64,000 bases of DNA from an uncultured Pelagibacteraceae bacterium (GCA_902595795.1 CACJRK010000004.1:1-64000), one strand, 5' to 3'; counted from the stretch's first letter, positions 45,725 to 63,520 are shown. Made by a program: numbers and translations. The notes: generated by a model not told the origin, from the sequence alone.

Positions 45725-47047
45725 TTATTTCTTTGCCATTATAGCATTCAAAGCAAATGCTAATAATCCAGCAGGTATAAGTCCAGTTGTTAACAATAGT
45801 TTTAAACTTATTCCAAAATCTGGAATATTTTTTACAAAGTCTGGTAACAGTGACATCCCAATTCCAAAAGACAAAGAAAGAGCTAAGATTAATAAATTTC
45901 TTTGATCCATTTCTGCCCTTGAAATCAATTTAATTCCAGCAGCTACAATCATACCAAACATAATGATTGCTGCTCCACCAATCACAGACTCTGGCATTGC
46001 AGCGATTATTCCACCTAATTTTGGAAATAATCCCATTAGAACCAAGGCTATTCCTGCAATAGTTCCAACGTGCCTACTTACCACACCTGTAAACGCAACT
46101 AGTCCAGCATTTTGTGAATAGGATGTGTTTGGCATCGCATTAAATATTGCACCAAATGCAGTACCCACACCATCTGCCATAATTCCACCTGATATTTCTT
46201 TATCAGTTGCTTCTCGTTTAGCACCACCCATTGTCGTAGCACTTATGTCTCCAATTGTTTCAATTGTTGTAACAACTGACATAAACAACATTAGAATTAT
46301 TGCACCAGGTACAAAATCAATTCCATATTGAAGTGGCATTGGAAATGCAAACCATGCTGCAGATGCAATTTTGCCATAGTTAACCATTCCTAGTGCTGCT
46401 GCAACTATGAAACCAGCTACTATTCCAATTAAAATTGAGGCTGCAGAAGCCATTCCTTTTCCTCTAAGATTGAAAAAGATAGCAACTATGAACACTGAGG
46501 CGGCAACTGTTAAGTGATTTGCATTTGCAAAGATTTCAGGTTTATTGTTCATTAACCATCCACCTCCACCAGCATACATAAAACCAACTTTAAGCAAACT
46601 AAATCCGATCATTAACACAACTATACCAGTGACTAATGGTGGAAATAGATGCCTTATTGGTTTTAAAACTTTTCCAATAAAAATTTGAAAAATTCCTCCA
46701 ATGAACGCAGCTGTAAATACTGCACCTAATCCTGCTGCTTTAAATGGTAGCATGATTGGTATAAATGCAAAACTTGTTCCTTGAACAATAGGAAGTCTTG
46801 CGCCAATTTCTTTATATCCAACAGTTTGGATAATTGTTGCAACTCCCGCTACAAACAAAGCCATTTGAATCAAAAATATTTTTTGCTCAGGCGTTTGACC
46901 AAAAACTCCAGCCACAATAATAGGAACAGTTATGTTACCAGCAAACATTGCTAGTACGTGCTGAATTCCTAAAGGTATGGATTTATTTAATGGAAGTTTT
47001 TTATCCGGACTGTTTGTAGAGCCCGCTTTTGTTTTTCTTGAAGCCAT
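45725..47047 (-). CDS. NCS2 family nucleobase (xanthine/uracil) permease
   Basis: The 440-residue protein is a nucleobase:cation symporter of the uracil-xanthine (NCS2) family with about 12-14 membrane segments. Conserved features are SIPLGIQHVLAMFAGNITVPIIVAG at the N-terminus, PIVQGTSFAFIPIM, and the family signature region MGGAKREATDKEISGGIMADGVGTAFGAIFNAMPNTSYSQNAGLVAFTGVVSR. The NTSYSQN form resembles xanthine/urate permeases more than UraA, which fits its place beside purine catabolism genes. Substrate remains inferred. A strong GGAGG ribosome site lies before the ATG. Confidence 0.92.
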   Translation of the reverse strand: MASRKTKAGSTNSPDKKLPLNKSIPLGIQHVLAMFAGNITVPIIVAGVFGQTPEQKIFLIQMALFVAGVATIIQTVGYKEIGARLPIVQGTSFAFIPIMLPFKAAGLGAVFTAAFIGGIFQIFIGKVLKPIRHLFPPLVTGIVVLMIGFSLLKVGFMYAGGGGWLMNNKPEIFANANHLTVAASVFIVAIFFNLRGKGMASAASILIGIVAGFIVAAALGMVNYGKIASAAWFAFPMPLQYGIDFVPGAIILMLFMSVVTTIETIGDISATTMGGAKREATDKEISGGIMADGVGTAFGAIFNAMPNTSYSQNAGLVAFTGVVSRHVGTIAGIALVLMGLFPKLGGIIAAMPESVIGGAAIIMFGMIVAAGIKLISRAEMDQRNLLILALSLSFGIGMSLLPDFVKNIPDFGISLKLLLTTGLIPAGLLAFALNAIMAKK

Positions 47048-47186
47048 ATAACCTCCGTCGTTAACTAAATAGACGTTACATTATTGGCTATGAATTAATA
47101 TAAAAAAACTGATTAGTTTAGAATAACTCCACTTTAGATAGTGAAAAAAAACCTATAATGAGCAGATTTATTTTAATTAATAAATT

Positions 47187-47492
47187 TTAAAAGCAACCGT
47201 TTGAAACAAAACCCACAACTATATTTTCTGAATTTATTTCAAACCTACGTTCACATGGAACAAGGTATTTTTTGCTATTATAAACAAACTCAAAATTGCC
47301 TTTAGCATTTTTAAAGTCTTCGTCTGGTTTTCCAAGCTCCATCTGAAGTTCACTAGCTGATTTTCCAAGAAATTTACTTAATTTTTCATTTTCCTTTTCA
47401 ACAATAGCATCTGTTTTATTTTTAACAGTTTGGCACCCTGAAAAAAAAATTAATACAATTACAAGACTTATTGCTGATTTAAGTTTTGACAT
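47187..47492 (-). CDS. small lipoprotein, unknown function
   Basis: The 101-residue product has a lipoprotein signal peptide with the lipobox LIFFSGC. The mature part contains FLGKSASELQMELGKPDEDFKNAKGNFEFVYNSKKYLVPCERRFEINSENIVVGFVSNGCF. The sequence around SELQMELGKPD resembles the small SmpA/OmlA-like (BamE) fold, where a GxP turn precedes strands, and two cysteines could form a disulfide. I do not recognise a specific family. It is isolated between the permease gene (same strand, 139-base gap) and the divergent deaminase gene. Confidence 0.7.
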   Translation of the reverse strand: MSKLKSAISLVIVLIFFSGCQTVKNKTDAIVEKENEKLSKFLGKSASELQMELGKPDEDFKNAKGNFEFVYNSKKYLVPCERRFEINSENIVVGFVSNGCF

Positions 47493-47618
47493 AAGTTTAA
47501 ATTAACATTTTTTGTTTAATAAATTATTAACTTTTAAGTTGTATAAATAATTTATTTCTTATTACTTTTAAGTTTAATTATAGTAACAATTGTGTTCTTT
47601 ATTTGATGGTTCAAGCGT

Positions 47619-48209
47619 ATGAATGAAAAAGCCCTAGAAAAGATACTAAATATATTTTCAAAAAAGGTTTTACCCTTAACTGAAAAAGGTGTTGCTAAAG
47701 GTAGTAAAGTATTTGGTGCCGCAATAATTAAAAAAGTTGATTTATCGCTTATAGTTGCAGAAACAAATAATGAAATAGAAAATCCATTGTGGCATGGAGA
47801 AATGCATACTCTCAAAAAATTTTATGAATTAGATGCAAATACAAGACCAAAAGAAAAAGACTGCATGTTCTTAAGTTCACACGAGCCCTGTAGTATGTGT
47901 TTGAGTGCAATCACATTTTCTGGATTTGATAATTTTTATTATTTGTTTCCTTATACTGCTACAAATGATGAATTTTATATTCCACACGATTTAAATATAC
48001 TCAAAGAAGTATTTAAAATTAATGATGGAGAATATAATAAAGAAAATTCTTACTGGAAAAGTCAAAATATAAACTTACTTATTGAAAATTTACCTACTTC
48101 AAAAAAAGAAAATATTTTAAAACAATTAGACGAAATTAAAAAAAAATATCAAACTTTATCAAATCAATATCAGGAAAATAAGGATGGGAATTCTATACCA
48201 TTAAATTAA
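47619..48209 (+). CDS. cytidine/deoxycytidylate deaminase-fold nucleoside deaminase
   Basis: This is a zinc-dependent deaminase of the CDA superfamily. The zinc-binding site is seen as WHGEMHTLKKF (HxE) and SSHEPCSMCLSAITF (PCxxC). At 196 residues it is longer than the guanine deaminase gene farther along the island, with an N-terminal helical region and a C-terminal extension. Its stop is three bases before the ABC ATPase gene, so it opens the nucleoside transporter operon. A role on an imported nucleoside or base such as adenine, adenosine or cytidine is likely, but the substrate is unknown. Confidence 0.83.
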   Translation: MNEKALEKILNIFSKKVLPLTEKGVAKGSKVFGAAIIKKVDLSLIVAETNNEIENPLWHGEMHTLKKFYELDANTRPKEKDCMFLSSHEPCSMCLSAITFSGFDNFYYLFPYTATNDEFYIPHDLNILKEVFKINDGEYNKENSYWKSQNINLLIENLPTSKKENILKQLDEIKKKYQTLSNQYQENKDGNSIPLN

Positions 48210-48212: not shown

Positions 48213-49703
48213 ATGAATACAAACCTTAAAATTTTAAATGTAACTAAAATATATCCTGGGTGTGTTGCAAACGACAATGTTTCACTCGAATTTAATAGTG
48301 GTAAAATTTATGCTCTTCTTGGAGAAAATGGTGCTGGAAAATCTACACTAGTTAAAATTCTATCAGGCGTCATCATTCCTGACGAAGGTAACATTTATTT
48401 AAATGAAAATAATCTAAAGCTCAATTCACCATTAGATGCAAAAAAAAATGATATCGGAATGGTATTCCAGCATTTTAATCTTTTTGAAACTTTGTCCGTA
48501 TTTGAAAACTTAATAATAGACTCAGATGACGAAAGGGAAAGTTTAAGAGAAAAAATTGATACAATTATGAAAAAATATAATTTTTCAATTGATCTTGATA
48601 TTCCTGTTCTAAATCTATCAGCAGGTCAAAAACAGAAAGTGGAAATAATAAGATGCCTAATAAGAAGTCCAAAAGTTTTAATTATGGATGAACCAACATC
48701 TGTATTAACAGAACAAGAAACGAGTGAATTATTCTTATCTTTGAAAAAATTTTCAGAAGAAGGAATTTTAATTATTTATATTACACATAAACTAAAGGAA
48801 GTTATGCAGCTTTGTGATGAAGTTGCTGTAATGAGAAGAGGAAAGTTAGTTTCTGTAAGTGAAATAAATAACGAAAATATTGAGTCACTTGCTAACAAAA
48901 TGGTGGGTCAGAACCTAAAAACAATTAAGAAAAAAAAAACAAAAACTTCATCAGATCAGTTAATTAAAATAACTAATCTTAATTTTACAAGTGAAGATCC
49001 TTTTGAAACAAATTTAATGGATATTAATTTTTCTGTTAATCGAGGAGAGTGTTTAGGAATTGCTGGTATATCAGGAAACGGACAAAGTGAATTATTTCAA
49101 GTATTAAGTGGTGAAATTATTTCGAAAAAGAACTCTATAGAATTTAATAAAAATTATATAGGAGATTTAAATCCTCAAGAAAGAAGAGAATATTTGATGG
49201 CCTTTTCTCCAGAGGATAGGCTTGAGCAGGCTGCAATTCCACAAATGAAAATTTTTGAAAATGTAGCTCTAAACAATTTTAAATCATCAAATTTTTTTAA
49301 TAACGGATTAATAAACGAAAACAAAATTAAAGAGCATTCCAAAAAAATAATTTCAGATTTTAATGTTAATACAGATAACATAGAGTTAAAAAGCCAATTT
49401 TTGTCTGGAGGTAATCTTCAAAAATTAATTATTGGAAGAGAATTAATAACTTCTCCAGATTTATTAATTTGTTTTAATCCAACTTGGGGTCTAGATGTTG
49501 GAGCAATAAATTATATCCACGAAACATTGATTAAAATCAATGAACAAAATAAATCAATTATATTAATATCTACAGACACTGATGAGTTATTAAAATTAAG
49601 TGATAAAATTTCAGTAATTCATAAAGGAAAATTGTCAAAAATTATGAATTCTGAAGAAGTTACCTCTGAAAAACTTGGGATACTAATGGGAGGAGCAAAT
49701 TGA
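48213..49703 (+). CDS. nucleoside/simple-sugar ABC transporter ATPase (two ATPase domains)
   Basis: The 496-residue protein is a tandem ATPase of the RbsA/NupA type. The N-terminal domain has Walker A GENGAGKST, signature LSAGQKQKVEI and Walker B VLIMDEPTSVLT. The C-terminal domain has the degenerate GISGNGQSELF in place of Walker A, then signature LSGGNLQKLIIGREL and FNPTWGLDVGA, as is usual in this class. With the two permeases and BMP protein it forms a BmpA-NupABC-type importer. The next gene starts in its stop region. Confidence 0.93.
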   Translation: MNTNLKILNVTKIYPGCVANDNVSLEFNSGKIYALLGENGAGKSTLVKILSGVIIPDEGNIYLNENNLKLNSPLDAKKNDIGMVFQHFNLFETLSVFENLIIDSDDERESLREKIDTIMKKYNFSIDLDIPVLNLSAGQKQKVEIIRCLIRSPKVLIMDEPTSVLTEQETSELFLSLKKFSEEGILIIYITHKLKEVMQLCDEVAVMRRGKLVSVSEINNENIESLANKMVGQNLKTIKKKKTKTSSDQLIKITNLNFTSEDPFETNLMDINFSVNRGECLGIAGISGNGQSELFQVLSGEIISKKNSIEFNKNYIGDLNPQERREYLMAFSPEDRLEQAAIPQMKIFENVALNNFKSSNFFNNGLINENKIKEHSKKIISDFNVNTDNIELKSQFLSGGNLQKLIIGRELITSPDLLICFNPTWGLDVGAINYIHETLIKINEQNKSIILISTDTDELLKLSDKISVIHKGKLSKIMNSEEVTSEKLGILMGGAN

Positions 49704-50764
49704 TTAAAATCGTAAAACGAGATCAACCATCAAGAGCTATTTTTTTCTTTACACCTGTGTTAGCTATTTTTCTAACATTAGTAGCGGGAGGTTTGATTTT
49801 TTTTATTTTAGGTTTTAAACCATTTGAAGCTCTTAAATTTTTTTTCATAGTTCCAATTGCAGATAAATATGGTTTCAGTGAATTACTATTAAAAGCTACA
49901 CCTCTTTGTTTAATTGCAATCGGTTTATCTTTTTGTTTTAAAAGTAATAACTGGAATATTGGAGCCGAAGGGCAATTAACTTTCGGGGCGATAGTTTCAG
50001 GAGGAGTTGCATTATTGTTTTATGAGCAAGAAGGTTTTTATATTCTTCCAATAGTAATTTTAGCTGGTGCAATCGGTGGTATGCTGTATGCGTCAATACC
50101 CGCAATTTTAAAAACTTACTTTAATACAAATGAAATATTAGTAAGTCTTATGTTGGTATATGTTTCAAAATTAATTTTGGACTATCTTGTTGTTGGTCCT
50201 TGGAGCAATCCAGAGGGATTTAATTTTCCTGAAACCAGACAGTTCAGTGACTCTGCTAAACTTCCGTTATTATTTGAAGGACTAAGAATTCACGCAGGAA
50301 TATTTTTAGCTTTAGCTGCAGTGGTTATCAGTTGGTTTGTTTTTTATAAAACGTATTTAGGGTTCCAAATGAAAGTTTCAGGTTTTAGTTTAAAGACAGC
50401 AAAATATGCCGGATACAAAGGTAAAAAAATGATCATTCTCGTTTTTTTAATTAGTGGTGCTTGCGCAGGTTTAGCTGGAGTTGGAGAAATAACTGGACCT
50501 ATTGGTCAGCTTCACAGAGAAATTTCTCCAGATTATGGTTTTACTGCTATAATTGTAGCGTTTTTGGGTCGTTTACATCCTGTTGGTATTATCTTTGCAT
50601 CACTAGTTGTTGCAATAACTTATTTGGGTGCTGAAACAGCTCAAATATTTATGCAAATTCCTAAATATACTGGTCAGGTTTTTCAAGGAATGATTTTATT
50701 TTTTCTTCTTGCATCAGATTATTTACTTTTTTTCAAAATTAAATTTATAGGTTCAAAAAAATGA
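49700..50764 (+). CDS. nucleoside ABC transporter permease (NupB/YufP type)
   Basis: This inner-membrane permease of 354 residues has eight or more helices. Its NWNIGAEGQLTFGAI motif, the ANTNEILVSLMLVYV-like FNTNEILVSLML stretch and GACAGLAGVGEITGPIGQL are characteristic of branched/nucleoside-type (BPD_transp_2) permeases that work with BMP proteins. The start is TTG, with a strong GGAGGAG ribosome site six bases before it, and overlaps the ATPase stop. Its stop overlaps the next permease ATG by four bases. Confidence 0.92.
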   Translation: MIKIVKRDQPSRAIFFFTPVLAIFLTLVAGGLIFFILGFKPFEALKFFFIVPIADKYGFSELLLKATPLCLIAIGLSFCFKSNNWNIGAEGQLTFGAIVSGGVALLFYEQEGFYILPIVILAGAIGGMLYASIPAILKTYFNTNEILVSLMLVYVSKLILDYLVVGPWSNPEGFNFPETRQFSDSAKLPLLFEGLRIHAGIFLALAAVVISWFVFYKTYLGFQMKVSGFSLKTAKYAGYKGKKMIILVFLISGACAGLAGVGEITGPIGQLHREISPDYGFTAIIVAFLGRLHPVGIIFASLVVAITYLGAETAQIFMQIPKYTGQVFQGMILFFLLASDYLLFFKIKFIGSKK

Positions 50765-51693
50765 TCATTGATATAAATTTTATTGGACTGATAATTGCAT
50801 CAATAATGGCTTCCGCTGTTCCTTTGATCCTAGCGTCCTGTGGTGAACTTATTACAGAAAGATCCGGTGTTCTAAACCTTGGTGTTGAAGGAATGATGAT
50901 CATTGGGGCTATATCAGGCTTCGCACTAATGACAGTGACAGGAAGTTTGATTATTGCAGTTTTTGGTGCAATGTTAGCTGGAGTTCTAATTTCAACTATT
51001 TTTGCATTCCTTACTCAAACATTAATCACTAATCATGTTGCTACTGGTTTGGCGCTTACCATATTTGGAATTGGTATTTCTGCGATGATAGGAAAAAATT
51101 TTGTAGGTATTCCTGGAAAAGAGTTTCCTGTTTTGTTTGAAGGTTTAAAAGATACAATACCACTTTTCGGCCCAATATTATTTGGACATTCAATTGTTTT
51201 TTATTTTGCTTTTGCCCTTCCCTTCATAACTAGCTATTTTTTAAAAAAAACGAAAATTGGATTAATTGTAAGAGCTGTAGGAGACTCACCTGAGTCTGCG
51301 TCTAATCAAGGAATAAATGTTAGGTTAGTTCGTTACGCTTGTATACTTTATGGAGGCGCAATGAGTGGACTTGCTGGTGCATATTTATCCATGATTTATA
51401 CTCCTCAGTGGATTGAAAATATGACGGGTGGAAGAGGTTGGATCGCATTAGCTCTGGTGGTTTTCTCAACGTGGAACCCAATTAAAATTTTAATTGGCGC
51501 TATGATTTTTGGTGGATTAACAATTATTCAATTTCATATGCAAGCAATTGGAGTAAGAATTCCTGTGCAATTTTTAACAGCTCTACCTTACATCGTTACA
51601 ATAATAGTTTTGGTTGTAATTTCTCGTGATAGTAGAAAAATAAGGCTAAGTACTCCTAGTTCTCTGGGGAAATCTTTTCATAAAGACAATTAA
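50761..51693 (+). CDS. nucleoside ABC transporter permease (NupC/YufQ type)
   Basis: The second permease of the importer, 310 residues. The motif ERSGVLNLGVEGMMIIGAISGF near the N-terminus, LTNHVATGLALTIFGIG-like TNHVATGLALTIFG in the middle and RAVGDSPESASNQGINV are typical of the smaller partner permease in BMP-dependent transporters. The ATG overlaps the first permease stop. It is followed by a 78-base gap before bmpA that has a short AT hairpin and a T-run. Confidence 0.92.
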   Translation: MIIDINFIGLIIASIMASAVPLILASCGELITERSGVLNLGVEGMMIIGAISGFALMTVTGSLIIAVFGAMLAGVLISTIFAFLTQTLITNHVATGLALTIFGIGISAMIGKNFVGIPGKEFPVLFEGLKDTIPLFGPILFGHSIVFYFAFALPFITSYFLKKTKIGLIVRAVGDSPESASNQGINVRLVRYACILYGGAMSGLAGAYLSMIYTPQWIENMTGGRGWIALALVVFSTWNPIKILIGAMIFGGLTIIQFHMQAIGVRIPVQFLTALPYIVTIIVLVVISRDSRKIRLSTPSSLGKSFHKDN

Positions 51694-51771: not shown

Positions 51772-52842
51772 ATGCATAAATTTTTTATTCGTTCTTTCGT
51801 CTCTTCTTTAGTTTTATTATTTACGTTTACTGTAGCTGCAATTGCAAAAGATGTTAAAGCAGCATTTGTTTATATTGGCCCAACTGGTGACCATGGATGG
51901 ACATATCAGCATGATGTAGGTAGAAAAGCTGTTGAAGCTGCCGGATTTAAAACAACTTACGTAGAAGGTGTTCCAGAAAGTGCTGATGCTGAGAGGGTTC
52001 TTAGACAATTAGCTAATTCTGGTCATGATGTTATCTTTACAACTAGTTTTGGATACATGAATCCAACTAACAAAGTTGCAAAAGAGTTTCCAAATGTAAA
52101 ATTTGAACATGCTACTGGATATAAAAGAGAACATCCAAATGTTTCTACATACGCAGCTAGATTTTACGAAGGTAGAACAATCTTAGGAACAATCGCTGGA
52201 ACTATGACAAAATCAAATGTTATTGGTTATGTGGCATCTTTTCCAATTCCTGAAGTTATCAGGGGTATCAATTCATTTACTTTAGCGGCTCAAAAAGTTA
52301 ATCCAAATATTAAAACTAAAATTGTTTGGGCTTTCACTTGGTACGATCCAGGTAAAGAAGCAGAAGCAGCAAAAGCTTTAATTGACCAAGGTGCTGATGT
52401 AATTGCTCAACATACAGATAGTACTGCTATTGTTCAAATTGCTGAAAAAGCTGGAGTATATGCTTTTGGACAAGCAAGTGATATGGACAAGTTTGCTCCT
52501 AAAGCTGTATTGACTTCAGTTGAAAACAATTGGGGCCCATATTACGTAGACAGAGTTAAAGCTGTTGCAAACGGTACATGGAGCCAAAAAGATACTTGGC
52601 ATGGTATTGGAGACGGTATGGTGGTGATATCAGATTTAGATTCACAAATGCCAGCTGACCTAAGATCAAAAGTTAAAAAACTTCAAGCAGATTTAGCATC
52701 TGGTAAAGTTCATTCTTTCACAGGACCAATTTATGACCAGAAAGGTAATTTAATGGTAGCAGAAGGAAAAACTGCAGATGATGGAATGCTTGCGGGTATG
52801 ATGACTTATGTTAAAGGTGTTGAAGGAGATATACCTAAGTAA
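51772..52842 (+). CDS. BMP family ABC transporter substrate-binding protein
   Basis: This is the periplasmic ligand-binding component of the nucleoside importer. The signal peptide is MHKFFIRSFVSSLVLLFTFTVAAIAK, and the mature protein is about 330 residues. It shows AFVYIGPTGDHGWTYQHDVGRKAVE, the BMP family start, then FTTSFGYMNPTNKVAKEFPNVKFEHATGYK and WYDPGKEAEAAKALIDQGADVIAQHTDS. BMP proteins in this type bind nucleosides or purine bases. A strong ribosome site (AAAGGGG) and a good terminator suggest high expression, as expected for a binding protein. Confidence 0.94.
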   Translation: MHKFFIRSFVSSLVLLFTFTVAAIAKDVKAAFVYIGPTGDHGWTYQHDVGRKAVEAAGFKTTYVEGVPESADAERVLRQLANSGHDVIFTTSFGYMNPTNKVAKEFPNVKFEHATGYKREHPNVSTYAARFYEGRTILGTIAGTMTKSNVIGYVASFPIPEVIRGINSFTLAAQKVNPNIKTKIVWAFTWYDPGKEAEAAKALIDQGADVIAQHTDSTAIVQIAEKAGVYAFGQASDMDKFAPKAVLTSVENNWGPYYVDRVKAVANGTWSQKDTWHGIGDGMVVISDLDSQMPADLRSKVKKLQADLASGKVHSFTGPIYDQKGNLMVAEGKTADDGMLAGMMTYVKGVEGDIPK

Positions 52843-52865: not shown

Positions 52866-52895
52866 AAAAGGCCGGTTTTTTAACTGGCCTTTTTT
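52866..52895 (+). terminator. intrinsic terminator after the BMP gene
   Basis: AAAAGGCCGGTT-TTTT-AACTGGCCTTTTTT forms a stem of about 12 base pairs (one G-T pair) followed by T residues, 24 bases after the bmpA stop. The AAAAGGCC...GGCCTTTT frame matches the groEL terminator. It touches the 3' end of the convergent phosphoribosyltransferase gene and may serve both strands. Confidence 0.9.
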
Positions 52896-53418
52896 ATATC
52901 TGATGTTTTTTTTTGATTTCTTCAATCCTTAATTCTTCATAAATTTCAAAGGGCTGTACTATCCAAGGATTATCAGGAAGTCTATTTGCACAGAAGTCTG
53001 GCTCAAATGTTGATTTCTTTTTTTTAAATAATGTTGCAGTTTTAATATCTTCTATTTTATCTTTAATGGGTTCATATTTTTTTAACCAATCTATACTTTT
53101 GTTAAAAGTAATTCCTGTATCAGATAAATCATCACATAAAAGTATTTTTCCACCCATATTAGGTGCTATAGAACTCATTTCTCTTGAGAACACAATATCA
53201 CCTTGCTCATCCTCCACTCCCTTACCACTGTAAGACTCAACTGCAAGATAAGCACATTTTAATTTAAAAATTCTACTTAAAACATCTATCATCGGTGCTG
53301 CTCCACGCATAATGCCAACTAGTATTGTTGGTTTGTATCCACTCTCATCAATTTGAATTGCTAGTTTCTCAACAGTTTTGTTGTACTCATCCCAGCTGAC
53401 AATCATTTTTTCAGACAT
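52894..53418 (-). CDS. purine phosphoribosyltransferase (Gpt/xanthine type)
   Basis: The 174-residue protein has the type I phosphoribosyltransferase fold. The PRPP motif is GKILLCDDLSDTGITFNKSIDWLKK, with the conserved acidic pair, and ILVGIMRGAAPMIDVLSRIF precedes it. The closing NPWIVQPFEIYEEL is like Gpt-type xanthine/guanine/hypoxanthine enzymes. In this setting it likely salvages imported purine bases to nucleotides, competing with breakdown by the neighbouring genes. Substrate preference is not clear from sequence. Confidence 0.88.
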   Translation of the reverse strand: MSEKMIVSWDEYNKTVEKLAIQIDESGYKPTILVGIMRGAAPMIDVLSRIFKLKCAYLAVESYSGKGVEDEQGDIVFSREMSSIAPNMGGKILLCDDLSDTGITFNKSIDWLKKYEPIKDKIEDIKTATLFKKKKSTFEPDFCANRLPDNPWIVQPFEIYEELRIEEIKKKHQI

Positions 53419-54343: not shown

Positions 54344-54813
54344 CAATATTTTATTTTATCTACTTTTTTATCCCAAATTTCAAATGCTTTTAAAGCTTCA
54401 TCTCTAAATATTTGTATCATTTCAATTTTCCTATCATCAATTTTTTTTGGAATCTCTTTATAAATAAACGAGTCATCGAAATCTATATTTTTTGCATCTT
54501 CTCGGGTGTTTGCATAATATATTTTATCTAATCTAGACCAATAAATTGCTGAAAGACACATGGGGCAAGGTTCACAAGAAGTATAAATCTCACATCCAGA
54601 AAGATTAAATGTATTTAATTTTTTACAGGCCTCCCGAATTGCTACTATCTCTCCATGGGCTGTTGGATCATTTGAATAAGTTACTTTATTAGATCCCTCT
54701 GCAATAATTTTGTTATCCTTAACTATGACACTTCCAAAAGGACCACCAATAGTATTTGCGCTATTGATTGAAAGTTCAATTGCTTTTGCCATAAATATTT
54801 TTTTATCTTCCAT
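54343..54813 (-). CDS. guaD: guanine deaminase (CDA-fold, GuaD type)
   Basis: This 156-residue zinc deaminase would convert guanine to xanthine. Its zinc site is AHGEIVAIREACKKLNTFNLSGCEIYTSCEPCPMCLSAIYWSRLDKIYYANTREDA, which closely matches Bacillus-type GuaD (TSCEPCPMC and the DAxxIGFDD region, here DAKNIDFDD). The nearby xanthine dehydrogenase and urate genes support guanine as the substrate. A tRNA adenosine deaminase is less likely given the C-terminal region and location. It lies two bases after xdhB and is coupled to puuD by TGATG. Confidence 0.92.
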   Translation of the reverse strand: MEDKKIFMAKAIELSINSANTIGGPFGSVIVKDNKIIAEGSNKVTYSNDPTAHGEIVAIREACKKLNTFNLSGCEIYTSCEPCPMCLSAIYWSRLDKIYYANTREDAKNIDFDDSFIYKEIPKKIDDRKIEMIQIFRDEALKAFEIWDKKVDKIKY

Positions 54814-54814: not shown

Positions 54815-57118
54815 TTAATTTTTTATTTTATTTTTAATTTTATTTATACTCATTAAAATTCTTTCAGGTGTTGCTGGTGCATTAAGTTCTGGTGTAAACT
54901 GATAATTTCCAATTGAAGCAACTGCATCTTTAATTGCATAAAAAACGCTCATTGCTAGCATCAAAGGAGGTTCTCCAGTTGTTTTTGCTTTATTAACAAC
55001 TTTTTCTTTGTTTAATCCCTCTTTAAAAATTTCTACATTAAATTTTTTTGGAATATCACTTACAGCAGGTATTTTGTAAGTTGATGGAGAAAAAGTTGTA
55101 ATCTGACCATCTGATTTCCACTTTAATTCTTCTATTGTTAACCAACCTTGTCCTTGCACAAAACCACCCTCTATCTGGCCTAATTCTAGTGCTGGATTTA
55201 TTGGTTTACCGGCATCATGTAAAATATCTACTCTTTCCAAGATATTTTCACCAGTCAATGTATCTACAGTTACTTCTGAAACAGCTGCGCCATAACAAAA
55301 ATAATAAAAAGGCCTTCCTCTAAATTTTTTTTTATCAAAATTAATTTTTGGTGTTGAGTAGAAACCTGAAGATGAAAGGGAAATTCTATTTAAATATGCC
55401 TCTTGAATTATACTTTTAAATTCGAATTGTCTATTTCCAAATATTATATATTGATCTTTATAAACTGCTTCTAGATTATAAATTTTATATTTTTTCTTAA
55501 TAAATTTTTCTAAATTTAATTTAATTTTTGCTACTGCATTTAATGCTGCAGCACCATTAAGATCAGTAGTTGAGGAAGCAGCACTAGCTGAAGTATTTGG
55601 AACCTTAGCTGTATTTGTTGATGAAATATGAACTAAACTATAGGGTAATCCTAAAGAATTGGCTACTAATTGAGCTATCTTTGTATGAGTCCCCTGACCC
55701 ATTTCTATTCCTCCATGATTTAAATGCACACTTCCATCTGTGTAAATATGAACTAAGGCTCCAGCTTGATTTAAATGAATAGTTGTAAATGAAATACCAA
55801 ATTTTAAAGGTGTAATAGCTATACCCTTCTTTTTAAATTTATTTTTTTCATTGAATTTTCTAATATCTAAATATCTTTTTTTATAATTAGATTTATTTTC
55901 TAAATTTTTAAATATTTCGTTAATTACATTATCTTCAATAGTCATCCCATAATGAGTTACATTTCTTTTATCTTTTTGATAAAAATTTTTTTTTCTAACT
56001 TCTATAGGATCTTTTTTTAAATACCTTGAAATATTATCTATAATATTTTCTATGGCCATCATACCTTGATTTCCACCGAAGCCTCTAAATGCAGTTGAAG
56101 TTGGAATATTTGTTTTGCATAAATTATTTGTTACCTCAATATCCGAAATATAATATGCGTTGTCTATATGAAGCAAAGCTCTCTCATTTATTGCAACTGA
56201 TAAATCAGGTGACATTCCACAATTTGAAGATAAGTTTATTTTTAATCCTTCAATAATTCCATCATCATTAAAACCAACTTCATATTCAGATAAAAATTCG
56301 TGTCTTTTACCAGTCAATATTATATCATCATCTCTATCTAATCTTAATTTGACTGGCTGACCTGATTTTTTTGCCAACAACGCACAAATACACGCTGTCA
56401 TAAAATTTGTTTCCTTTCCTCCAAACCCACCTCCAATTCTTCTCACTTCAACATTTATTGAATTACTTTTTTGATTGAACATTTTTGCAATTAATTGTTG
56501 TGTTTCTGATGGATGTTGTGTCGAACTATAAACTAAAAAATTATCATCTTCTTTAGGAACAACAAAAGCCGCCTGGCCCTCTAAATAAAAATGCTCTTGG
56601 CTTCCAGTTGTAAAATTTCCTTTTAAATTATTTTTTGAATTTTTTATTTTTTTAGAAGGGTTACCTTTTTTAACTTTTCTAGGTTTAAATAAAAATTGCT
56701 TCTTATTTAAAGCTTCTTTTATTGTGATAACCGGTTTTAAATCTTTATAGGTAACTTTAGCTTTTAATACTGCCTTCCTAGCAAGCTCTGTAGTTGTAGC
56801 AGCTACAGCAAATAATGGCTGGCCAAAAAACTCTACTTTTTTTTCTGTAAAAATTGGATCACCTTCAAAAACTGGACCCACGTCATTTCTACCAGGGATA
56901 TCACTTTGAGTAACTACTGATATCACTCCTTCACTTTTTTTTACTTCAGTGAGGTCTATATTTTTGATTATTGCATGTGCTTTTTTGCTTAAACCAATAG
57001 CTCCATAAATTGTATTTTTTGGTTCATTAATATCATCAGTATATTCTGCATAACCACTTACATGCTTATAGGCACTATCATGTGGTCTTATTTCCTCAAT
57101 GTAGTTCTCTTTGCTCAT
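54815..57118 (-). CDS. xdhB: xanthine dehydrogenase, molybdopterin-binding subunit
   Basis: XdhB is the large subunit that oxidises hypoxanthine and xanthine to urate at a molybdenum centre. The 767-residue protein carries GGGFGGKE (about residue 229-235), TAFRGFGGNQG (about 343), GGIEMGQGTHTK (about 475) and the active-site glutamate in TTGEPPLMLAMSVFYAI (near 717). These are the Moco-contacting loops of the family. It follows xdhA directly and precedes guaD by two bases. Molybdenum cofactor synthesis genes must be elsewhere, as none is in the window. Confidence 0.97.
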   Translation of the reverse strand: MSKENYIEEIRPHDSAYKHVSGYAEYTDDINEPKNTIYGAIGLSKKAHAIIKNIDLTEVKKSEGVISVVTQSDIPGRNDVGPVFEGDPIFTEKKVEFFGQPLFAVAATTTELARKAVLKAKVTYKDLKPVITIKEALNKKQFLFKPRKVKKGNPSKKIKNSKNNLKGNFTTGSQEHFYLEGQAAFVVPKEDDNFLVYSSTQHPSETQQLIAKMFNQKSNSINVEVRRIGGGFGGKETNFMTACICALLAKKSGQPVKLRLDRDDDIILTGKRHEFLSEYEVGFNDDGIIEGLKINLSSNCGMSPDLSVAINERALLHIDNAYYISDIEVTNNLCKTNIPTSTAFRGFGGNQGMMAIENIIDNISRYLKKDPIEVRKKNFYQKDKRNVTHYGMTIEDNVINEIFKNLENKSNYKKRYLDIRKFNEKNKFKKKGIAITPLKFGISFTTIHLNQAGALVHIYTDGSVHLNHGGIEMGQGTHTKIAQLVANSLGLPYSLVHISSTNTAKVPNTSASAASSTTDLNGAAALNAVAKIKLNLEKFIKKKYKIYNLEAVYKDQYIIFGNRQFEFKSIIQEAYLNRISLSSSGFYSTPKINFDKKKFRGRPFYYFCYGAAVSEVTVDTLTGENILERVDILHDAGKPINPALELGQIEGGFVQGQGWLTIEELKWKSDGQITTFSPSTYKIPAVSDIPKKFNVEIFKEGLNKEKVVNKAKTTGEPPLMLAMSVFYAIKDAVASIGNYQFTPELNAPATPERILMSINKIKNKIKN

Positions 57119-58555
57119 TTAATTCACTCTTGATAACTTATTGGAATTTATTTCTATAAAGCATTTCATCAATAAATTTTTTGCTATCTCTAATCTGTAT
57201 TCTTTGCTTGCTCTCATGTCTCCAATAGGACTTAAATCTTTTTCTAAATAATTTTTTGCTTGATCAAAAGTATTGACAGTAAGAGGCTTATTTTTAAGAA
57301 TTTTTTCACATGCTTTAGCTCTTTTTGGTACAGCAGCCATACCCCCATATGCAATATAAGCCTCTTTAATTTTATTATTATTAATTTCAAAATTAAAAGA
57401 TCCACAAACAGAGGAAATATCATCATCAAATCTTTTTGATATTTTAAATGCCTTAAAAATATTTTTCTTAAATAATGGTATTTTTATTGAGTGAATAAAT
57501 TCGTTCTTTTTTAATTTAGTTTTTCTGTAATCAAGGAAAAAATTATTTAAAGGCAAAACTTTTCTTTTATTAAAGCTTTCAACTAAAACCTCTGCATTTA
57601 AAGATAATAGAATTGGCAGTGAATCACCAATTGGAGATGCTGTTGCAATATTGCCACCTATAGTTCCAACATTTCGAATTTGAACAGAGCCATATCTTTT
57701 TAGAACTAAATAAAAATCTGGATAATATTTTTTAATTTCTTTTTCAAATTTTATTAAAGGTGTAGCGGAACCAACTTCTAAATAATTTTTACTTACTTTG
57801 ATAAAATCTAATTCATCAATTTCTTTTAAATCAATTATAAATGGAATTTTTTTTCTCTCTTTTGTAACTTTTAAAGATAAGTCAGTTCCACCAGCAAGAA
57901 AACTAAAATTAGAATGTTTTTTAATTACACCTTTTAAATCCTTAATATTTTTTGGTGAAAAATAAATTTTATCATCTTTTTTAATATAAATATTTTTCGG
58001 TTTAATTTTTTTTAATTGCTGAATAACTTTATTTTTATTTTTAGAAAATTGATCATTCTTATTTATCTTATTTAAACTTTTGGCAGCATCAATTATAGGT
58101 CTATAGCCAGTACAACGACATAAATTACCTGATATAGAATCTGTTATTAATTCATTATCAAGACTTTTATTATTTTTAAACATTGAAAATAAAGACATAA
58201 CAAATCCTGGCGTACAGAAACCACATTGAGAACCATGAAATTTTACCATCGCATCTTGAACTGGGTGAAGTTTTCCATTTTCAGAAACTAAATCTTCAAC
58301 AATTATAAGTTGCTTACCATTCAATGATGGGACAAATGAAATACAAGAATTGATTGCTTTATAGATAATGTTATTATCGACTAATTCACCCAAAACAATT
58401 GTACATGCACCACAACCACCCTCTGAGCATCCTTCTTTAGTTCCAGTCTTTTTTAATTCAGTTCTAATATAATTAAGTAATGTTTGATTTGGATCAGGAT
58501 TTTTGATTACTATGAGCTTATCATTTAATAAAAACTTAACAGAATTCGATATCAC
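57119..58555 (-). CDS. xdhA: xanthine dehydrogenase, FAD and 2Fe-2S subunit
   Basis: XdhA carries two 2Fe-2S clusters and FAD and passes electrons to NAD. The N-terminal ferredoxin domain has GCSEGGCGACTIVLG, the second cluster domain has GFCTPGFVMSLFSM and GNLCRCTGYRPIIDAA, and the FAD domain starts near residue 215 with FLAGGTDLSL and continues with RNVGTIGGNIATASPIGDSLP. The protein is 478 residues. The start codon is GTG, immediately after the uraH stop, and no ATG lies before the ferredoxin domain. It is one operon with uraH upstream and xdhB downstream. Confidence 0.97.
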   Translation of the reverse strand: MISNSVKFLLNDKLIVIKNPDPNQTLLNYIRTELKKTGTKEGCSEGGCGACTIVLGELVDNNIIYKAINSCISFVPSLNGKQLIIVEDLVSENGKLHPVQDAMVKFHGSQCGFCTPGFVMSLFSMFKNNKSLDNELITDSISGNLCRCTGYRPIIDAAKSLNKINKNDQFSKNKNKVIQQLKKIKPKNIYIKKDDKIYFSPKNIKDLKGVIKKHSNFSFLAGGTDLSLKVTKERKKIPFIIDLKEIDELDFIKVSKNYLEVGSATPLIKFEKEIKKYYPDFYLVLKRYGSVQIRNVGTIGGNIATASPIGDSLPILLSLNAEVLVESFNKRKVLPLNNFFLDYRKTKLKKNEFIHSIKIPLFKKNIFKAFKISKRFDDDISSVCGSFNFEINNNKIKEAYIAYGGMAAVPKRAKACEKILKNKPLTVNTFDQAKNYLEKDLSPIGDMRASKEYRLEIAKNLLMKCFIEINSNKLSRVN

Positions 58556-58906
58556 TTAACTGCCTCTATAAGTAGAATAACTCCAAGGTGAGACAAGTAA
58601 AGGAACATGATAATGCTGTAAGGGATCTGAAATACCAAATCTGATAACAACGTCATCCAAGAATGGTACATCGCTAGCTGAAGATGTATTTTTAAAATAA
58701 TCACCAATATAAAAAACTAATTCATATTTACCCTTAACAAAAACATCTCCCTCTACTAATGGTGAGTTAGCTCTACCATCTTCATTGAGTTTTGTTGACG
58801 TTAATTTTTTTCGTTCTGAATTATTAATATAAAACAACTCAACCAGGATACCTTTGCCAGGTTTACCAGAATACACATCTAAAACATGAGTTGTGAGCTT
58901 TGTCAT
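58556..58906 (-). CDS. uraH: 5-hydroxyisourate hydrolase
   Basis: UraH (PucM, transthyretin-like) hydrolyses 5-hydroxyisourate to OHCU, the step after urate oxidation. The 116-residue protein has the N-terminal TTHVLDVYSGKPGKGILVEL and the C-terminal YHVPLLVSPWSYSTYRGS, with the YRGS tetrapeptide that separates HIU hydrolases from transthyretin. The catalytic His and Arg positions are intact. It is the first gene of the minus-strand purine operon and is divergent from uraD. Confidence 0.97.
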   Translation of the reverse strand: MTKLTTHVLDVYSGKPGKGILVELFYINNSERKKLTSTKLNEDGRANSPLVEGDVFVKGKYELVFYIGDYFKNTSSASDVPFLDDVVIRFGISDPLQHYHVPLLVSPWSYSTYRGS

Positions 58907-58953: not shown

Positions 58954-59451
58954 ATGAGAACAATAGATAACATTAACGATCTTAACAAGTCTGATTTTTT
59001 GTCTGTATTTGGTAATGTTTTTGAAAAAACTGAATCAGTAGCTGTAGAAGCTTTTGAGTCAAAACCATTTAAAAACTTCGAAGATATTATGTTTAAAATG
59101 CTTGATATTTATGAAAATTACGAAAAAAATAAAATTTTAGAGATTTTAAATGCACATCCAGAGCTTGCTGTAGCAAAAAAAATGACCTCTGAGTCTATAT
59201 CAGAACAAGCCTCTGCAAAATTAAACCAATGTTCTAATGATGAATATGAGGAATTTAAAAAATTAAATTCAGAATATAAAAAAAAGTTTAATTTTCCTTT
59301 TATAATTGCCGTAAAAGGTAAAGATAAAAATGAAATTTTGAATAATTTTAGACAAAGAATACAAAGTGATGTAGAAAGTGAATTCCTTGAAGCAAAAAAA
59401 CAAGTAAAAAAAATCGCAACCTTTCGCTTGAATGAAATAAATAAAAAATGA
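58954..59451 (+). CDS. uraD: OHCU decarboxylase
   Basis: UraD decarboxylates 2-oxo-4-hydroxy-4-carboxy-5-ureidoimidazoline to S-allantoin. The 165-residue helical protein contains ILNAHPELAVAKKM with the catalytic His, EQASAKLNQCSNDEYEEFKKLNSEYKKKFNFPFIIAVKGKDKNEIL and a closing EFLEAKKQVKKIATFRL, matching the family. It heads the plus-strand operon. Its stop overlaps the allantoicase ATG by four bases. Confidence 0.95.
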   Translation: MRTIDNINDLNKSDFLSVFGNVFEKTESVAVEAFESKPFKNFEDIMFKMLDIYENYEKNKILEILNAHPELAVAKKMTSESISEQASAKLNQCSNDEYEEFKKLNSEYKKKFNFPFIIAVKGKDKNEILNNFRQRIQSDVESEFLEAKKQVKKIATFRLNEINKK

Positions 59452-60434
59452 AAAAATTTATAAGTGCAAAAATGATTAACTTAGCTGATCCAAGAATTGG
59501 ATCTAAAATTATATTCAAGACTGACGATTTTTTTGCAGCTGCTCATAGAATATTAAACATCGAAACTCCAGTTTTTAAAGATGGACTATTTGACAAACAT
59601 GGTAAATGGATGGATGGATGGGAAACAAGGAGAAAAAGATCAAAAGGTTTTGATTATTTAATTTTAAAACTTGGTAAACCTGGAAAGATATTTGATATAG
59701 ATATTGACACAACGCACTTCAATGGAAACCAACCCACACATGCTTCGTTAGAGGGTTGCTTAAGTAAAACAAAGCCTAATAAGAAAACAAAATGGATTTC
59801 TTTACTGAGCAAAAAAAAACTTGGGCCAAGCCAAAACCATAGCTTCAAATCAAAAAACAAATCTGTTTTTAATTATATAAGACTAAACATTTTTCCAGAT
59901 GGTGGAGTTGCAAGACTTAGGCTTTATGGAAAAATTGAAATGGAAAAAAACTTTTCAAGTAAAAAAACTATCAACCTTTCATCTGTTTTAAATGGTGCTT
60001 CAATTATTGGTTGTAATAATGAACATTTTGGCAGGGCTGAAAATATTATAGCACCTGGTAAAGGAAAAAATATGGGAGATGGTTGGGAAACTAGAAGAAG
60101 TAGAGGAAAAAACTTTGATTGGCTTATAATAAAATTTGGAAAACCAGGATTAATAAAAAAACTAGAGATAGATACCCATCATTTTAAAGGAAACTACCCC
60201 GATAGTTTTTCAATTCAAACTACAAATATTACAAAGGATCTATCTAATCAATCAATTGTAAAAAATTCAAAAAGTTGGAAATATATATTAAATAAATCAA
60301 AACTGTCAGCTCACAAGAAACATATTTTTAAAAAATTCTTAATTAAAAGAAGTAAGGAAAATTATCTTAGAATAAATATCTACCCAGATGGTGGAATTTC
60401 AAGAATAAGAGCATTTGGAAATTTTGTAAAATGA
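59448..60434 (+). CDS. alc: allantoicase
   Basis: Allantoicase hydrolyses allantoate to ureidoglycolate and urea. The 328-residue protein consists of two related halves, as known for the family. The repeated core is visible as KWMDGWETRRKRSKGFDYLILKLGKPGKIFDIDIDTTHFNGNQP in the first half and MGDGWETRRSRGKNFDWLIIKFGKPGLIKKLEIDTHHFKGNYP in the second, each followed by a NIFPDGGVARLRLYG-type end. It is translationally coupled on both sides by four-base overlaps. Confidence 0.96.
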   Translation: MKKFISAKMINLADPRIGSKIIFKTDDFFAAAHRILNIETPVFKDGLFDKHGKWMDGWETRRKRSKGFDYLILKLGKPGKIFDIDIDTTHFNGNQPTHASLEGCLSKTKPNKKTKWISLLSKKKLGPSQNHSFKSKNKSVFNYIRLNIFPDGGVARLRLYGKIEMEKNFSSKKTINLSSVLNGASIIGCNNEHFGRAENIIAPGKGKNMGDGWETRRSRGKNFDWLIIKFGKPGLIKKLEIDTHHFKGNYPDSFSIQTTNITKDLSNQSIVKNSKSWKYILNKSKLSAHKKHIFKKFLIKRSKENYLRINIYPDGGISRIRAFGNFVK

Positions 60435-60922
60435 ACATAATAAAAGCAAAAAAAATAACTAAAAAAAATTTTTCTAAATTTGGTCAATTAATCGATACGT
60501 CTAAAAAAAATCCTATAAATATAAATGATGGGTATGCTCAAAGATTTGATAATTTGATAAACATAGATGCCTCTAAAAAAAATGGGAAAGCAATTGTTAG
60601 TATTTTTAAAGCGAAAAAAAGAAAGTTTCCTATGAAAATTGATATGATGGAAAAACATCCTTTAGGAAGCCAAGCCTTTATACCAATGGAAGATACAAAA
60701 TTTTTAGTATTTGTAGCGCCGAGAGGAGATAAACCGGATATAAATAAAATCGAATCCTTTTTGGTCCCCAAACAAACTGGAGTTAATTACAATGCCGGTA
60801 TTTGGCACTTTCCACTTATTTCTATGAAAAATATGAATTTTCTAATTGTTGATAGAAAGGGAAAAGGAAAAAATCTTGTAATTTATAAATTTAAAAAAGA
60901 TAAAATTATTTTAAAAAAATGA
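60431..60922 (+). CDS. allA: ureidoglycolate lyase
   Basis: AllA splits ureidoglycolate into glyoxylate and urea, ending the ureide pathway. The 163-residue cupin-like protein contains MEKHPLGSQAFIPMEDTKFLVFVAPRGDKPD and GVNYNAGIWHFPLISM, the conserved catalytic and metal-site segments. The N-terminus ITKKNFSKFGQLID is also typical. It overlaps the genes on both sides by four bases. Glyoxylate could enter the glyoxylate shunt or glycine synthesis, which would be of use to SAR11 cells that need glycine sources. Confidence 0.95.
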   Translation: MNIIKAKKITKKNFSKFGQLIDTSKKNPININDGYAQRFDNLINIDASKKNGKAIVSIFKAKKRKFPMKIDMMEKHPLGSQAFIPMEDTKFLVFVAPRGDKPDINKIESFLVPKQTGVNYNAGIWHFPLISMKNMNFLIVDRKGKGKNLVIYKFKKDKIILKK

Positions 60923-61818
60923 AAAAAAAATATCCAAGAGATTTGGTGGGATATGGTTCCAAAAAAATTAAAGTAAGGTGGCCTGGTAATGCTAAGTTAG
61001 CTTTGCAATTTGTACTAAATTATGAAGAAGGAGCAGAGAATTGTACTCTTCATGGTGATAGAACTTCAGAAGTATTTTTATCAGAAATTATAGGAGCAAA
61101 ACCAATTAAAGGTCGACACTTAAACATGGAGTCAATTTATGAATATGGATCAAGAAGAGGGTTTTGGAGAATTCACGATCTATTTAATAAAAAAAAAATT
61201 CCACTTACTATTTTTGGAGTTGGTATGGCCTTAGAGAGAAATAAAGAAGTTTGTACAGCTATCAAAAAAGCAAAGTATGAAGTTGCTTGTCATGGGTGGA
61301 GATGGATTGATTATCAAAATGTATCAAAGAAAAAAGAAAAGAATGACATGAAACTTGCAGTAAAATCTATAAAAAAGATTTTTGGAACTCAACCTACTGG
61401 TTGGTACACTGGTAGATGTAGTACAAATACTTTAGATTTAGTAATTGATAATGGTAATTTTTTATACTGTAGCGATACATACAGTGATGATCTTCCTTAT
61501 TGGATAAAAAAAGGTAATAAAAAACAACTCATGGTTCCTTACACACTTGATAACAATGATATGAGATTTGCAACTAATCAAGGATTTAATTCGGGTGAAC
61601 AATTTTATAATTATTTAAAAGATAGTTTCGATGCTCTTTACGAGGAAGGAAAAACATCACCAAAGATGATGTCGGTTGGCTTACATTGTAGATTAATTGG
61701 AAGACCTGGGAGAATACAGTCCCTTAAAAAATTTTTAAATTACATCACAAAATTTAAGGATATTTGGATTTGCAAAAGAGTAGATATAGCTAAACATTGG
61801 ATAAAAAATTATAGTTAA
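60919..61818 (+). CDS. puuE: allantoinase, PuuE (polysaccharide-deacetylase-like) type
   Basis: PuuE hydrolyses allantoin to allantoate and is unrelated to the metal amidohydrolase AllB. The 299-residue protein begins KYPRDLVGYGSKKIKVRWPGNAKLALQFVLNYEEGAENCTLHGD, which matches PuuE almost word for word, followed by MESIYEYGSRRGFWRIHDLF and ACHGWRWIDYQN. It is the last gene of the uraD-alc-allA-puuE operon. The convergent cytochrome c gene ends eight bases away. Confidence 0.95.
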   Translation: MKKKYPRDLVGYGSKKIKVRWPGNAKLALQFVLNYEEGAENCTLHGDRTSEVFLSEIIGAKPIKGRHLNMESIYEYGSRRGFWRIHDLFNKKKIPLTIFGVGMALERNKEVCTAIKKAKYEVACHGWRWIDYQNVSKKKEKNDMKLAVKSIKKIFGTQPTGWYTGRCSTNTLDLVIDNGNFLYCSDTYSDDLPYWIKKGNKKQLMVPYTLDNNDMRFATNQGFNSGEQFYNYLKDSFDALYEEGKTSPKMMSVGLHCRLIGRPGRIQSLKKFLNYITKFKDIWICKRVDIAKHWIKNYS

Positions 61819-61826
61819 AATTTTTA

Positions 61827-62150
61827 TTATTGTTCTGCAGCTATAGAAGTGTAGTGAGCAACCGCTTCTATTTCCTCATCAGTTAGTATACCCTCCATTG
61901 CGGGCATTACTCCTATACCGTTTCTAACTGCCATTATAATTCTTTGAATATCAGGTCTAATTTCATTTAAATTTGGACCAACCATTGCGTTTGATCCAGC
62001 ATCTGAGAGCATATGGCATGCTGCACAATTACCAGCCTCTAGAAAAACTTCTTTTCCTTTATTAAATAATTCATCAGCATTAACTTGTGTTAATGATGAA
62101 AATATCAAAAATACCAATGTGCCAAATAAATTTAAAAATAATTTTTTCAC
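61827..62150 (-). CDS. small periplasmic cytochrome c
   Basis: The 107-residue protein has a signal peptide (KKLFLNLFGTLVFLIFSSLTQVNA) and a single heme site GNCAACHML, with the axial methionine probably in GIGVMPAMEGILTDEEI. It is a class I monoheme cytochrome c of about 80 mature residues. The start is GTG; no ATG precedes the signal peptide in a suitable place. Its position inside the purine island, and the lack of a cytochrome domain on PuuD, suggest it accepts electrons from urate hydroxylase. It is divergent from the DUF1330 gene. Confidence 0.93.
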   Translation of the reverse strand: MKKLFLNLFGTLVFLIFSSLTQVNADELFNKGKEVFLEAGNCAACHMLSDAGSNAMVGPNLNEIRPDIQRIIMAVRNGIGVMPAMEGILTDEEIEAVAHYTSIAAEQ

Positions 62151-62193: not shown

Positions 62194-62481
62194 ATGAAAG
62201 CTTATTGGATTGCGAATTATACTGAAATAAAAGATGAAGAAAGACTTAAAAAATATGCCGTTAAAGCTAAAGAGGCAGTTGAAAAATATTCTGGAAGAAT
62301 ATTGGCTAGAAGTGCAAATAATATAACTTTGGTAGGTAGGGAAATGGTTAGAGTGGCTCTTGCAGAATTTCCAGATATTAAAACTGCAAAAAATTGTTAC
62401 AATTCCGAAGAGTATGTTGAGGCCAGAAAACACTTAGAAAATAATGCCGTTAGAGAGCACATTATTTTTGAAGGAATGTAA
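62194..62481 (+). CDS. DUF1330 family protein
   Basis: The 95-residue protein is a ferredoxin-like alpha/beta-barrel (dimeric) of DUF1330, with MKAYWIANYTEIKDEERLKKYAVKAKEAVEKYSGRILARSANNITLVG and ALAEFPDIKTAKNCYNSEEYVEARKHLENNAVREHIIFEG. The fold is shared with small monooxygenases and isomerases, but DUF1330 has no established reaction. A good ribosome site (AAAAAGGAGAAT) precedes it. It lies between the cytochrome c and XdhC genes, so a role in purine use is likely by association but unproven. Confidence 0.9.
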   Translation: MKAYWIANYTEIKDEERLKKYAVKAKEAVEKYSGRILARSANNITLVGREMVRVALAEFPDIKTAKNCYNSEEYVEARKHLENNAVREHIIFEGM

Positions 62482-62501
62482 AATTCAAAATAATTTAATA
62501 A

Positions 62502-62831
62502 ATGACAAAATCATTAAAAAATACGATTTTAGAAGAAGCAATTTCATGGATTAAGTCTGGTCAACAAGTAGCTCTTGCAACCGTGGTTGAAACTTGGGGA
62601 TCGTCTCCATTCCAAATTGGAAGCAAAATGATAATTAATGAAAAAGGTAATTTTTTAGGATCAGTTTCTGGTGGTTGTGTAGAAACAAGCGTAATTACTG
62701 AATGTTTGGAATTAATAAAAAATAAAAATTCATTTAAGAAAATTGATTTCAAAGTCTCTGATGAAAATGCTTGGGACGTAGGGCTTGCATGTGGAGGAGA
62801 AATGACTGTTTTTATAGAGCAAATAAATTAA
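62502..62831 (+). CDS. XdhC/CoxI N-terminal domain protein (split XdhC)
   Basis: XdhC binds molybdenum cofactor, helps sulfurate it, and inserts it into xanthine dehydrogenase. This 109-residue protein corresponds to the N-terminal XdhC_CoxI domain, with VALATVVETWGSSPFQIGSKMIINEKGNFLGSVSGGCVETSVITECLE and WDVGLACGGEMTVFIEQIN. It ends at that domain boundary. Its stop overlaps the start of the next gene (TAATG), which carries the C-terminal half. The pair thus makes a two-protein XdhC. Confidence 0.9.
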   Translation: MTKSLKNTILEEAISWIKSGQQVALATVVETWGSSPFQIGSKMIINEKGNFLGSVSGGCVETSVITECLELIKNKNSFKKIDFKVSDENAWDVGLACGGEMTVFIEQIN

Positions 62832-63520
62832 TGAAAATAGAAACACTTAAAGAAATAATAAAAAAAAAGTTATCTAATGAACAATTTGCTGTTTTAACTA
62901 ATTTAAATAACGGATCCTCTGAAATATTTAAATTAGGAACACCAATTAGTAAAAATTTTATTAATTATAAAAATGAAATACAGAGTTATTATAATCTAAA
63001 AAAAAGTGGTATTATTGATGGTACTGAGATTTTTATTCAAAATTATATTAAGCCAGTTGAAGTAATCATAGTTGGTGCAGTACATATTACACAATATTTA
63101 ATTCAATATTTAAAAGATCTAAATTTTAATGTTATTGTTGTTGATCCAAGAGAATACTTCATAACTAAACAAAAATTTCAAAACATTAAAATTATCAATG
63201 AATGGCCTGAAGAATTTTTTAAAAAAATTGAAACTAGCTCTAATACTGCATTAATTACTTTGACTCATGATCCAAAAATTGACGAACCAGCGTTAAAATA
63301 TGCTTTAGAAAAAAAATTTTTTTATATAGGTGCTCTAGGAAGTAAAAAAACCCACGAGAATAGATGCAAAAGATTAAAAGAAGAGGGATTTAACGATGAG
63401 GAAATTGCCTCAATACATGGACCAATTGGAATTAAAATAGGAGGAAAATCTGCTCCTGAAATAGCTTTATCGATTGTTGCTCAATTAATTTTTGAAACAA
63501 ACAAATATAAAACGATTTAG
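62831..63520 (+). CDS. XdhC C-terminal Rossmann domain protein (split XdhC)
   Basis: The 229-residue product is the second half of XdhC. The track extends it to 62771, but that region only overlaps the previous gene, so the ATG at 62831 is used. After a linker comes the XdhC_C Rossmann domain with VEVIIVGAVHITQYLIQYLKDLNFNVIVVDPREYF, then ALITLTHDPKIDEPALKYAL and FFYIGALGSKKTHENRCKRLKEEGFNDEEIASIHGPIGIKIGGKSAPEIALSIVAQLI. All are standard. Its TAG stop overlaps that of the convergent glycosylase gene by four bases. Confidence 0.92.
   Translation: MKIETLKEIIKKKLSNEQFAVLTNLNNGSSEIFKLGTPISKNFINYKNEIQSYYNLKKSGIIDGTEIFIQNYIKPVEVIIVGAVHITQYLIQYLKDLNFNVIVVDPREYFITKQKFQNIKIINEWPEEFFKKIETSSNTALITLTHDPKIDEPALKYALEKKFFYIGALGSKKTHENRCKRLKEEGFNDEEIASIHGPIGIKIGGKSAPEIALSIVAQLIFETNKYKTI

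Follow-up and report, generated by a model that had tools for sequence, protein, structure and literature searches.

Every full-length PuuD urate oxidase has been described as bearing a C-terminal cytochrome c with invariant haem residues (Doniselli 2015, PMC4562309), and a functional paper on PuuD argues that this fused cytochrome is an essential component. A purine-catabolism island from a SAR11 bacterium, in which PuuD has the same membrane domain and purine context as in that study but no fused cytochrome c, therefore raises the question of what takes the electrons of urate oxidation. We addressed this question using a window of 64,000 nucleotides from an uncultured Pelagibacteraceae bacterium (GCA_902595795.1, CACJRK010000004.1:1-64000). 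The host was assigned to SAR11, as loci with PuuD at 94–99% identity all came from Pelagibacteraceae or Pelagibacter records.

Positions 45725–63520 (~18 kb) of the window contained ORFs, all intact, for every stage from purine uptake to glyoxylate and two ureas (Table 1). Gene identities were assigned using Pfam and NCBIfam profile matches together with PDB sequence matches; the NCBIfam cut-offs were exceeded by XdhB, XdhA, UraH, UraD, Alc, and PuuE. The island thus has the complete enzyme set from guanine or xanthine to glyoxylate and urea, with transporters, that defines the aerobic purine-degradation operon of SAR11. Each purine uptake or degradation gene named in an earlier note on this DNA was recovered as an intact ORF with matches far above chance, with two amendments. 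First, of the two deaminases it listed, GuaD matches a guanine deaminase strongly, and the other has the deaminase fold but only a weak placement within it, so that its substrate is uncertain. Second, XdhC is present but is encoded by two overlapping ORFs; since the same pair lies outside the island in a relative (L142:1716-2725), the split form is a real and stable two-gene arrangement whose location varies.

Table 1. Features of the purine-catabolism island, with coordinates counted from the first nucleotide of the window
Feature	Coordinates	Strand	Evidence or remark
NCS2 nucleobase permease, xanthine-permease-like	45725..47047	-	PF00860 300 bits; PbuX subfamily TIGR03173 407.6, just under its cut-off of 414
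Small lipoprotein-like ORF	47187..47492	-	core-locus member, found in island-less genomes
Second deaminase, cytidine/guanine deaminase fold	47619..48209	+	PF00383 39.6 bits; weakly similar to 1wkq, a guanine deaminase
nupN-like ATPase of the ABC importer, with two ABC domains	48213..49703	+	PF00005 x2
ABC importer permease 1	49700..50764	+	PF02653 153 bits
ABC importer permease 2	50761..51693	+	PF02653 120 bits
BMP/PnrA-type substrate-binding protein	51772..52842	+	PF02608 181 bits; PDB 3s99 8e-120, 6pi5 2e-109
Purine phosphoribosyltransferase (prt), core-locus gene	52894..53418	-	PF00156; kept in island-less genomes, 61-64% identity
PuuD urate oxidase, membrane domain only, 303 aa	53435..54346	-	PF06181 (Urate_ox_N) 285 bits
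Guanine deaminase GuaD, B. subtilis type	54343..54813	-	PF00383; B. subtilis guanine deaminase 1wkq 2.7e-49 over 151 residues
Xanthine dehydrogenase Mo subunit XdhB	54815..57118	-	TIGR02965 1107 bits; R. capsulatus XDH 1jro 3e-208
Xanthine dehydrogenase FeS/FAD subunit XdhA	57119..58555	-	TIGR02963 578 bits
5-Hydroxyisourate hydrolase UraH	58556..58906	-	TIGR02962 124 bits; C-terminal YRGS
OHCU decarboxylase UraD	58954..59451	+	TIGR03164 162 bits
Allantoicase Alc	59448..60434	+	TIGR02961 391 bits
Ureidoglycolate lyase AllA	60431..60922	+	PF04115 (Ureidogly_lyase) 167 bits; NCBIfam 174 bits, below its cut-off
Allantoinase PuuE	60919..61818	+	TIGR03212 485 bits
Secreted mono-haem cytochrome c, SorU type	61827..62150	-	CAACH, distal Met, mature pI 4.4; SorU 4pw9_B 1.3e-20
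DUF1330 protein, core-locus gene	62194..62481	+	PF07045; found in island-less genomes
XdhC N-terminal (CoxI) half, XDH maturation	62502..62831	+	PF02625 78.6 bits
XdhC C-terminal Rossmann half	62831..63520	+	PF13478 135 bits

The uptake and enzyme steps of the pathway follow from family membership. The NCS2 permease and the BMP-type ABC importer would bring in purines, GuaD would deaminate them, and XdhAB, matured by the two-piece XdhC and supplied with molybdenum cofactor (Moco) from a moa cluster elsewhere in the genome, would make urate. PuuD, UraH, and UraD would then convert urate to allantoin, from which PuuE, Alc, and AllA would produce glyoxylate and two ureas. The earlier note had placed the interest in the full gene set and its layout, but this set has already been described. 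Haro-Moreno (PMC7318151) reported the SAR11 purine-degradation island as a single operon in genomospecies Ia.3/V (HIMB083), an aerobic purine-degradation cluster like that of the window, and Braakman 2025 (PMC11698098) described a system sharing the enzymes, transporters, phosphoribosyltransferase, xanthine dehydrogenase (XDH) accessory protein, modular variants, and urea release. The offshore SAR11 genera Xanthinipelagibacter and Alipelagibacter, which carry xdhAB and nupNOPQ (PMC12636525), have the xanthine dehydrogenase and the nucleoside ABC importer in common with the window. These three papers jointly cover the island, its modules, urea release, and the frequent absence of urease; both the pathway and its ecology (purines as energy, carbon, or nitrogen, with urea returned to neighbours) are thus published. 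A cytochrome like that of the window island is not mentioned in the main text of either Haro-Moreno or Braakman, and PMC12636525 does not discuss a cytochrome for the urate step.

To place the island among its relatives, we used a sample of 59 same-genus genomes, 11 with and 48 without PuuD. The resulting frequency (11/59, ~19%) agrees with the literature figure of about 18–22% of SAR11 with the island, so the earlier view that such a pathway is rare in these streamlined genomes did not hold. PuuD-negative genomes (L143–L148) display the order prolyl-oligopeptidase, hsp20, lipoprotein, phosphoribosyltransferase, DUF1330, alkA; since this flanking order is kept, the catabolic genes look as though they were added to a core purine-salvage locus. 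Three loci (L127, L128, and L092) have puuD-guaD-xdhBA-uraH/uraD with neither importer nor cytochrome, three others (L069, L081, and L086) have a further layer containing the ABC importer and the cytochrome, and most relatives' loci carry alc-allA-puuE in addition. Among the 50 fully spanned loci, alc-allA-puuE was found in 47, the cytochrome in 49, and a local xdhC pair in 17. Because relatives carry layered subsets, the block is not all-or-nothing, contrary to the suggestion that it is gained or lost as a single unit; judged from gene order, its modules look layered onto the salvage locus.

The membrane part of PuuD is well preserved, with 47 of the 59 near-invariant residues of the DUF989 (Urate_ox_N) domain kept, but all eight near-invariant columns of the C-terminal cytochrome c (CXXCH, distal Met) are absent. 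The earlier account of PuuD as intact thus stands for the membrane domain and fails for the cytochrome domain, and it had missed the separate cytochrome c gene at 61827–62150. PuuD cannot have a hidden C-terminal domain, since prt starts 16 bp downstream of its end. A CXXCH motif was found in the tail of all 30 fused alphaproteobacterial PuuDs checked, and it was absent from the window PuuD and from 18 other SAR11 PuuD frames checked. Of the 65 strong matches to full-length PuuD in a class-wide sample, 63 had frames of 395 aa or longer, and the two short frames were those of this genome (306) and of G325 (308). In genera g3 and g6, PuuD is ~280 aa long and the last transmembrane helix is also gone, which would fit a protein no longer bearing a periplasmic domain. 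The AlphaFold prediction for PuuD had a pLDDT of 39, too low for use. The G325 frame (L136, G325:C33) belongs to another alphaproteobacterial family and also has no cytochrome domain, perhaps through an independent loss; no CXXCH ORF was found near it. Most SAR11 genomes also encode a short DUF989 paralogue of ~200 aa (here outside the window, G000:C2:26136-26369) that resembles the 4-helix variant mentioned by Doniselli 2015 (PMC4562309).

A PuuD without a domain described as invariant, together with a split XdhC, might indicate a pathway that is decaying or non-functional through absent cofactors or lost domains. Several observations make this extremely unlikely. Besides the retention of the PuuD membrane-domain residues, each gene was free of internal stops in all of the related Pelagibacteraceae loci compared (up to 80 per gene), and the median dN/dS across island genes was 0.02–0.17 (up to 80 SAR11 loci), well below 1 and indicative of purifying selection. 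The cofactor is also accounted for: MoaA, encoded in the same genome outside the island, adjoins MoaC and MoaE and a weak MoaD-like match. The earlier note had expected Moco genes to accompany the island and had named their absence as evidence against the pathway; their presence argues against decay, and with MoaA, MoaC, and MoaE in the genome, Moco is likely available to XDH. The components of a molybdenum xanthine dehydrogenase, namely a Mo subunit with the XDH active-site region, a 2Fe-2S/FAD subunit, and a likely Moco supply, were therefore all found. The moa genes (L125, G000:C8) also adjoin an MsrPQ-like pair, which consists of a membrane protein resembling ferric reductases and a molybdopterin oxidoreductase.

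We then asked what kind of protein the island cytochrome is. It has a signal peptide, and its best PDB match is SorU of Sinorhizobium meliloti, with which it shares the properties of a small, secreted, acidic, mono-haem cytochrome (PMC4760952; PDB 4PW9); with the SorU model it scored 86 bits, under the NCBIfam equivalog cut-off of 100. The cytochrome could in principle be the C-terminal domain of PuuD split off by gene fission, as each is a cytochrome c with a single haem and the domain is missing from PuuD. However, an HMM of the fused domain gave only 4 bits with the island cytochrome, no more than with other SorU-like proteins, and the best fused-domain match in BLAST had an E value of 0.006 versus 1e-14 to 1e-23 for SorU-type relatives. 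Fission is thus disfavoured as the origin of the gene and is the least probable of the explanations that we weighed.

The family relationship suggests a different source. The island copies and a copy in G014 form a clade with a support of 0.95, and the G014 copy adjoins a TauE-type sulfite exporter; this grouping suggests that the island cytochrome was recruited from sulfite metabolism. One might then suppose that it still serves as the electron acceptor of a SorT encoded elsewhere and lies here by chance, especially as a homologue sits directly behind SorT in several relatives. Unlike the SorT/SorU system (PMC4760952), however, the island cytochrome gene lies among purine genes, and a search for SorT in this genome and in the seven other genomes of the genus sample that carry the island cytochrome found none. 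Since the island copies also form their own clade, we consider a role as a SorT partner very unlikely.

Within the genus, the distribution of the cytochrome largely follows that of PuuD. All eight genus-sample genomes with strong matches to the island cytochrome have PuuD, and a SorU-type cytochrome of any kind was found in 9 of the 11 PuuD-positive versus 3 of the 48 PuuD-negative genomes, a comparison in which Fisher values overstate independence because the PuuD-positive genomes are mutually related. In the two PuuD-positive genomes with no detected cytochrome (G158 and G197), the contigs stop before its expected place. The gene is retained in loci without alc-allA-puuE. Conversely, in several PuuD-positive loci the island cytochrome is missing (L092, L127, L128, and the g3 and g6 genomes), indicating that it is not strictly required and that PuuD must make do with a different carrier in these cases. 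Most of the genomes concerned encode a SorU-type cytochrome at another site, and some PuuD-negative relatives encode one as well. Stand-alone SorU-like cytochromes with no SorT nearby occur in g3 and g6 (L152, L156, L157, and L161); being present in PuuD-positive and PuuD-negative genomes alike, they were uninformative as a marker of PuuD.

These exceptions bear on the most serious alternative, in which the island is the ordinary published operon, the cytochrome is a passenger or a general electron carrier, and PuuD uses any periplasmic respiratory cytochrome c. The match of the island to the published gene set, the PuuD-positive loci without the cytochrome, and the position of its gene at the edge of the island, where a passenger could lie, all accord with this explanation. 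Against it, the gene is under purifying selection (dN/dS 0.14), is kept in 49 of the 50 fully spanned loci, and shows a strong association with PuuD in the genus sample. On balance, we regard the passenger or general-carrier explanation as rather unlikely.

We instead favour, with reasonable though far from full confidence, a purine-catabolism island set into a salvage locus in which PuuD would pass its electrons to a recruited SorU-type cytochrome. In the fuller islands, this cytochrome c would take the electrons of PuuD in the periplasm and hand them to a terminal oxidase, so that urate oxidation would be coupled to respiration and would presumably yield no H2O2. We put slightly better than even odds on a SAR11 urate oxidase of two components, namely a membrane PuuD stripped of its cytochrome and a cytochrome c taken over from sulfite oxidation. 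The loss of the PuuD cytochrome together with a separate SorU-type cytochrome is not described in the main texts of the SAR11 purine papers and looks new. In SAR11, the part of PuuD that catalyses and the part that carries electrons are naturally separate, and two small genes would be enough to test whether and how the cytochrome is needed. If the proposed electron path is true, respiration receives electrons from urate oxidation in a group that is among the most abundant in the ocean, and peroxide is avoided; if the two-component structure is true, the fused cytochrome domain can be replaced, and the same type of carrier has been re-used for a second oxidase.

The fate of the two ureas was also considered. 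The earlier note had reported no urease and suggested urea export, an idea already published as urea release by SAR11 purine catabolism (PMC11698098). No urease alpha subunit was detected in the assembly of this genome, which is 84% complete, unlike in Xanthinipelagibacter, where urease is present in 6 of 8 genomes (PMC12636525). The absence is nonetheless uncertain because close relatives have urease: it occurs in 5 of 11 PuuD-positive versus 0 of 48 PuuD-negative genomes of the genus sample (Fisher 9e-5, inflated by relatedness). A urease hidden at the site that it occupies in the near relative G174 (L124) was rejected, since this genome also contains the left flank of that site, followed there by another gene (beta-lactamase-like by eye) in place of ureG. 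Urease is likely absent from this genome, although an assembly gap elsewhere may hide it.

Finally, we looked for signs of regulation. No Rfam family reached its gathering score in the window, three weaker matches in the island, all below threshold, were judged to be chance and set aside as candidates for riboswitch or other RNA control, and no regulator gene was seen in the island. The spacer between the divergent uraH and uraD (58907–58953; TATAGTATCAT) is nearly constant in 65 loci, at 46–48 bp. This spacer and the one between the cytochrome and DUF1330 genes (GGTATCAT) are possibly shared promoters or operators.
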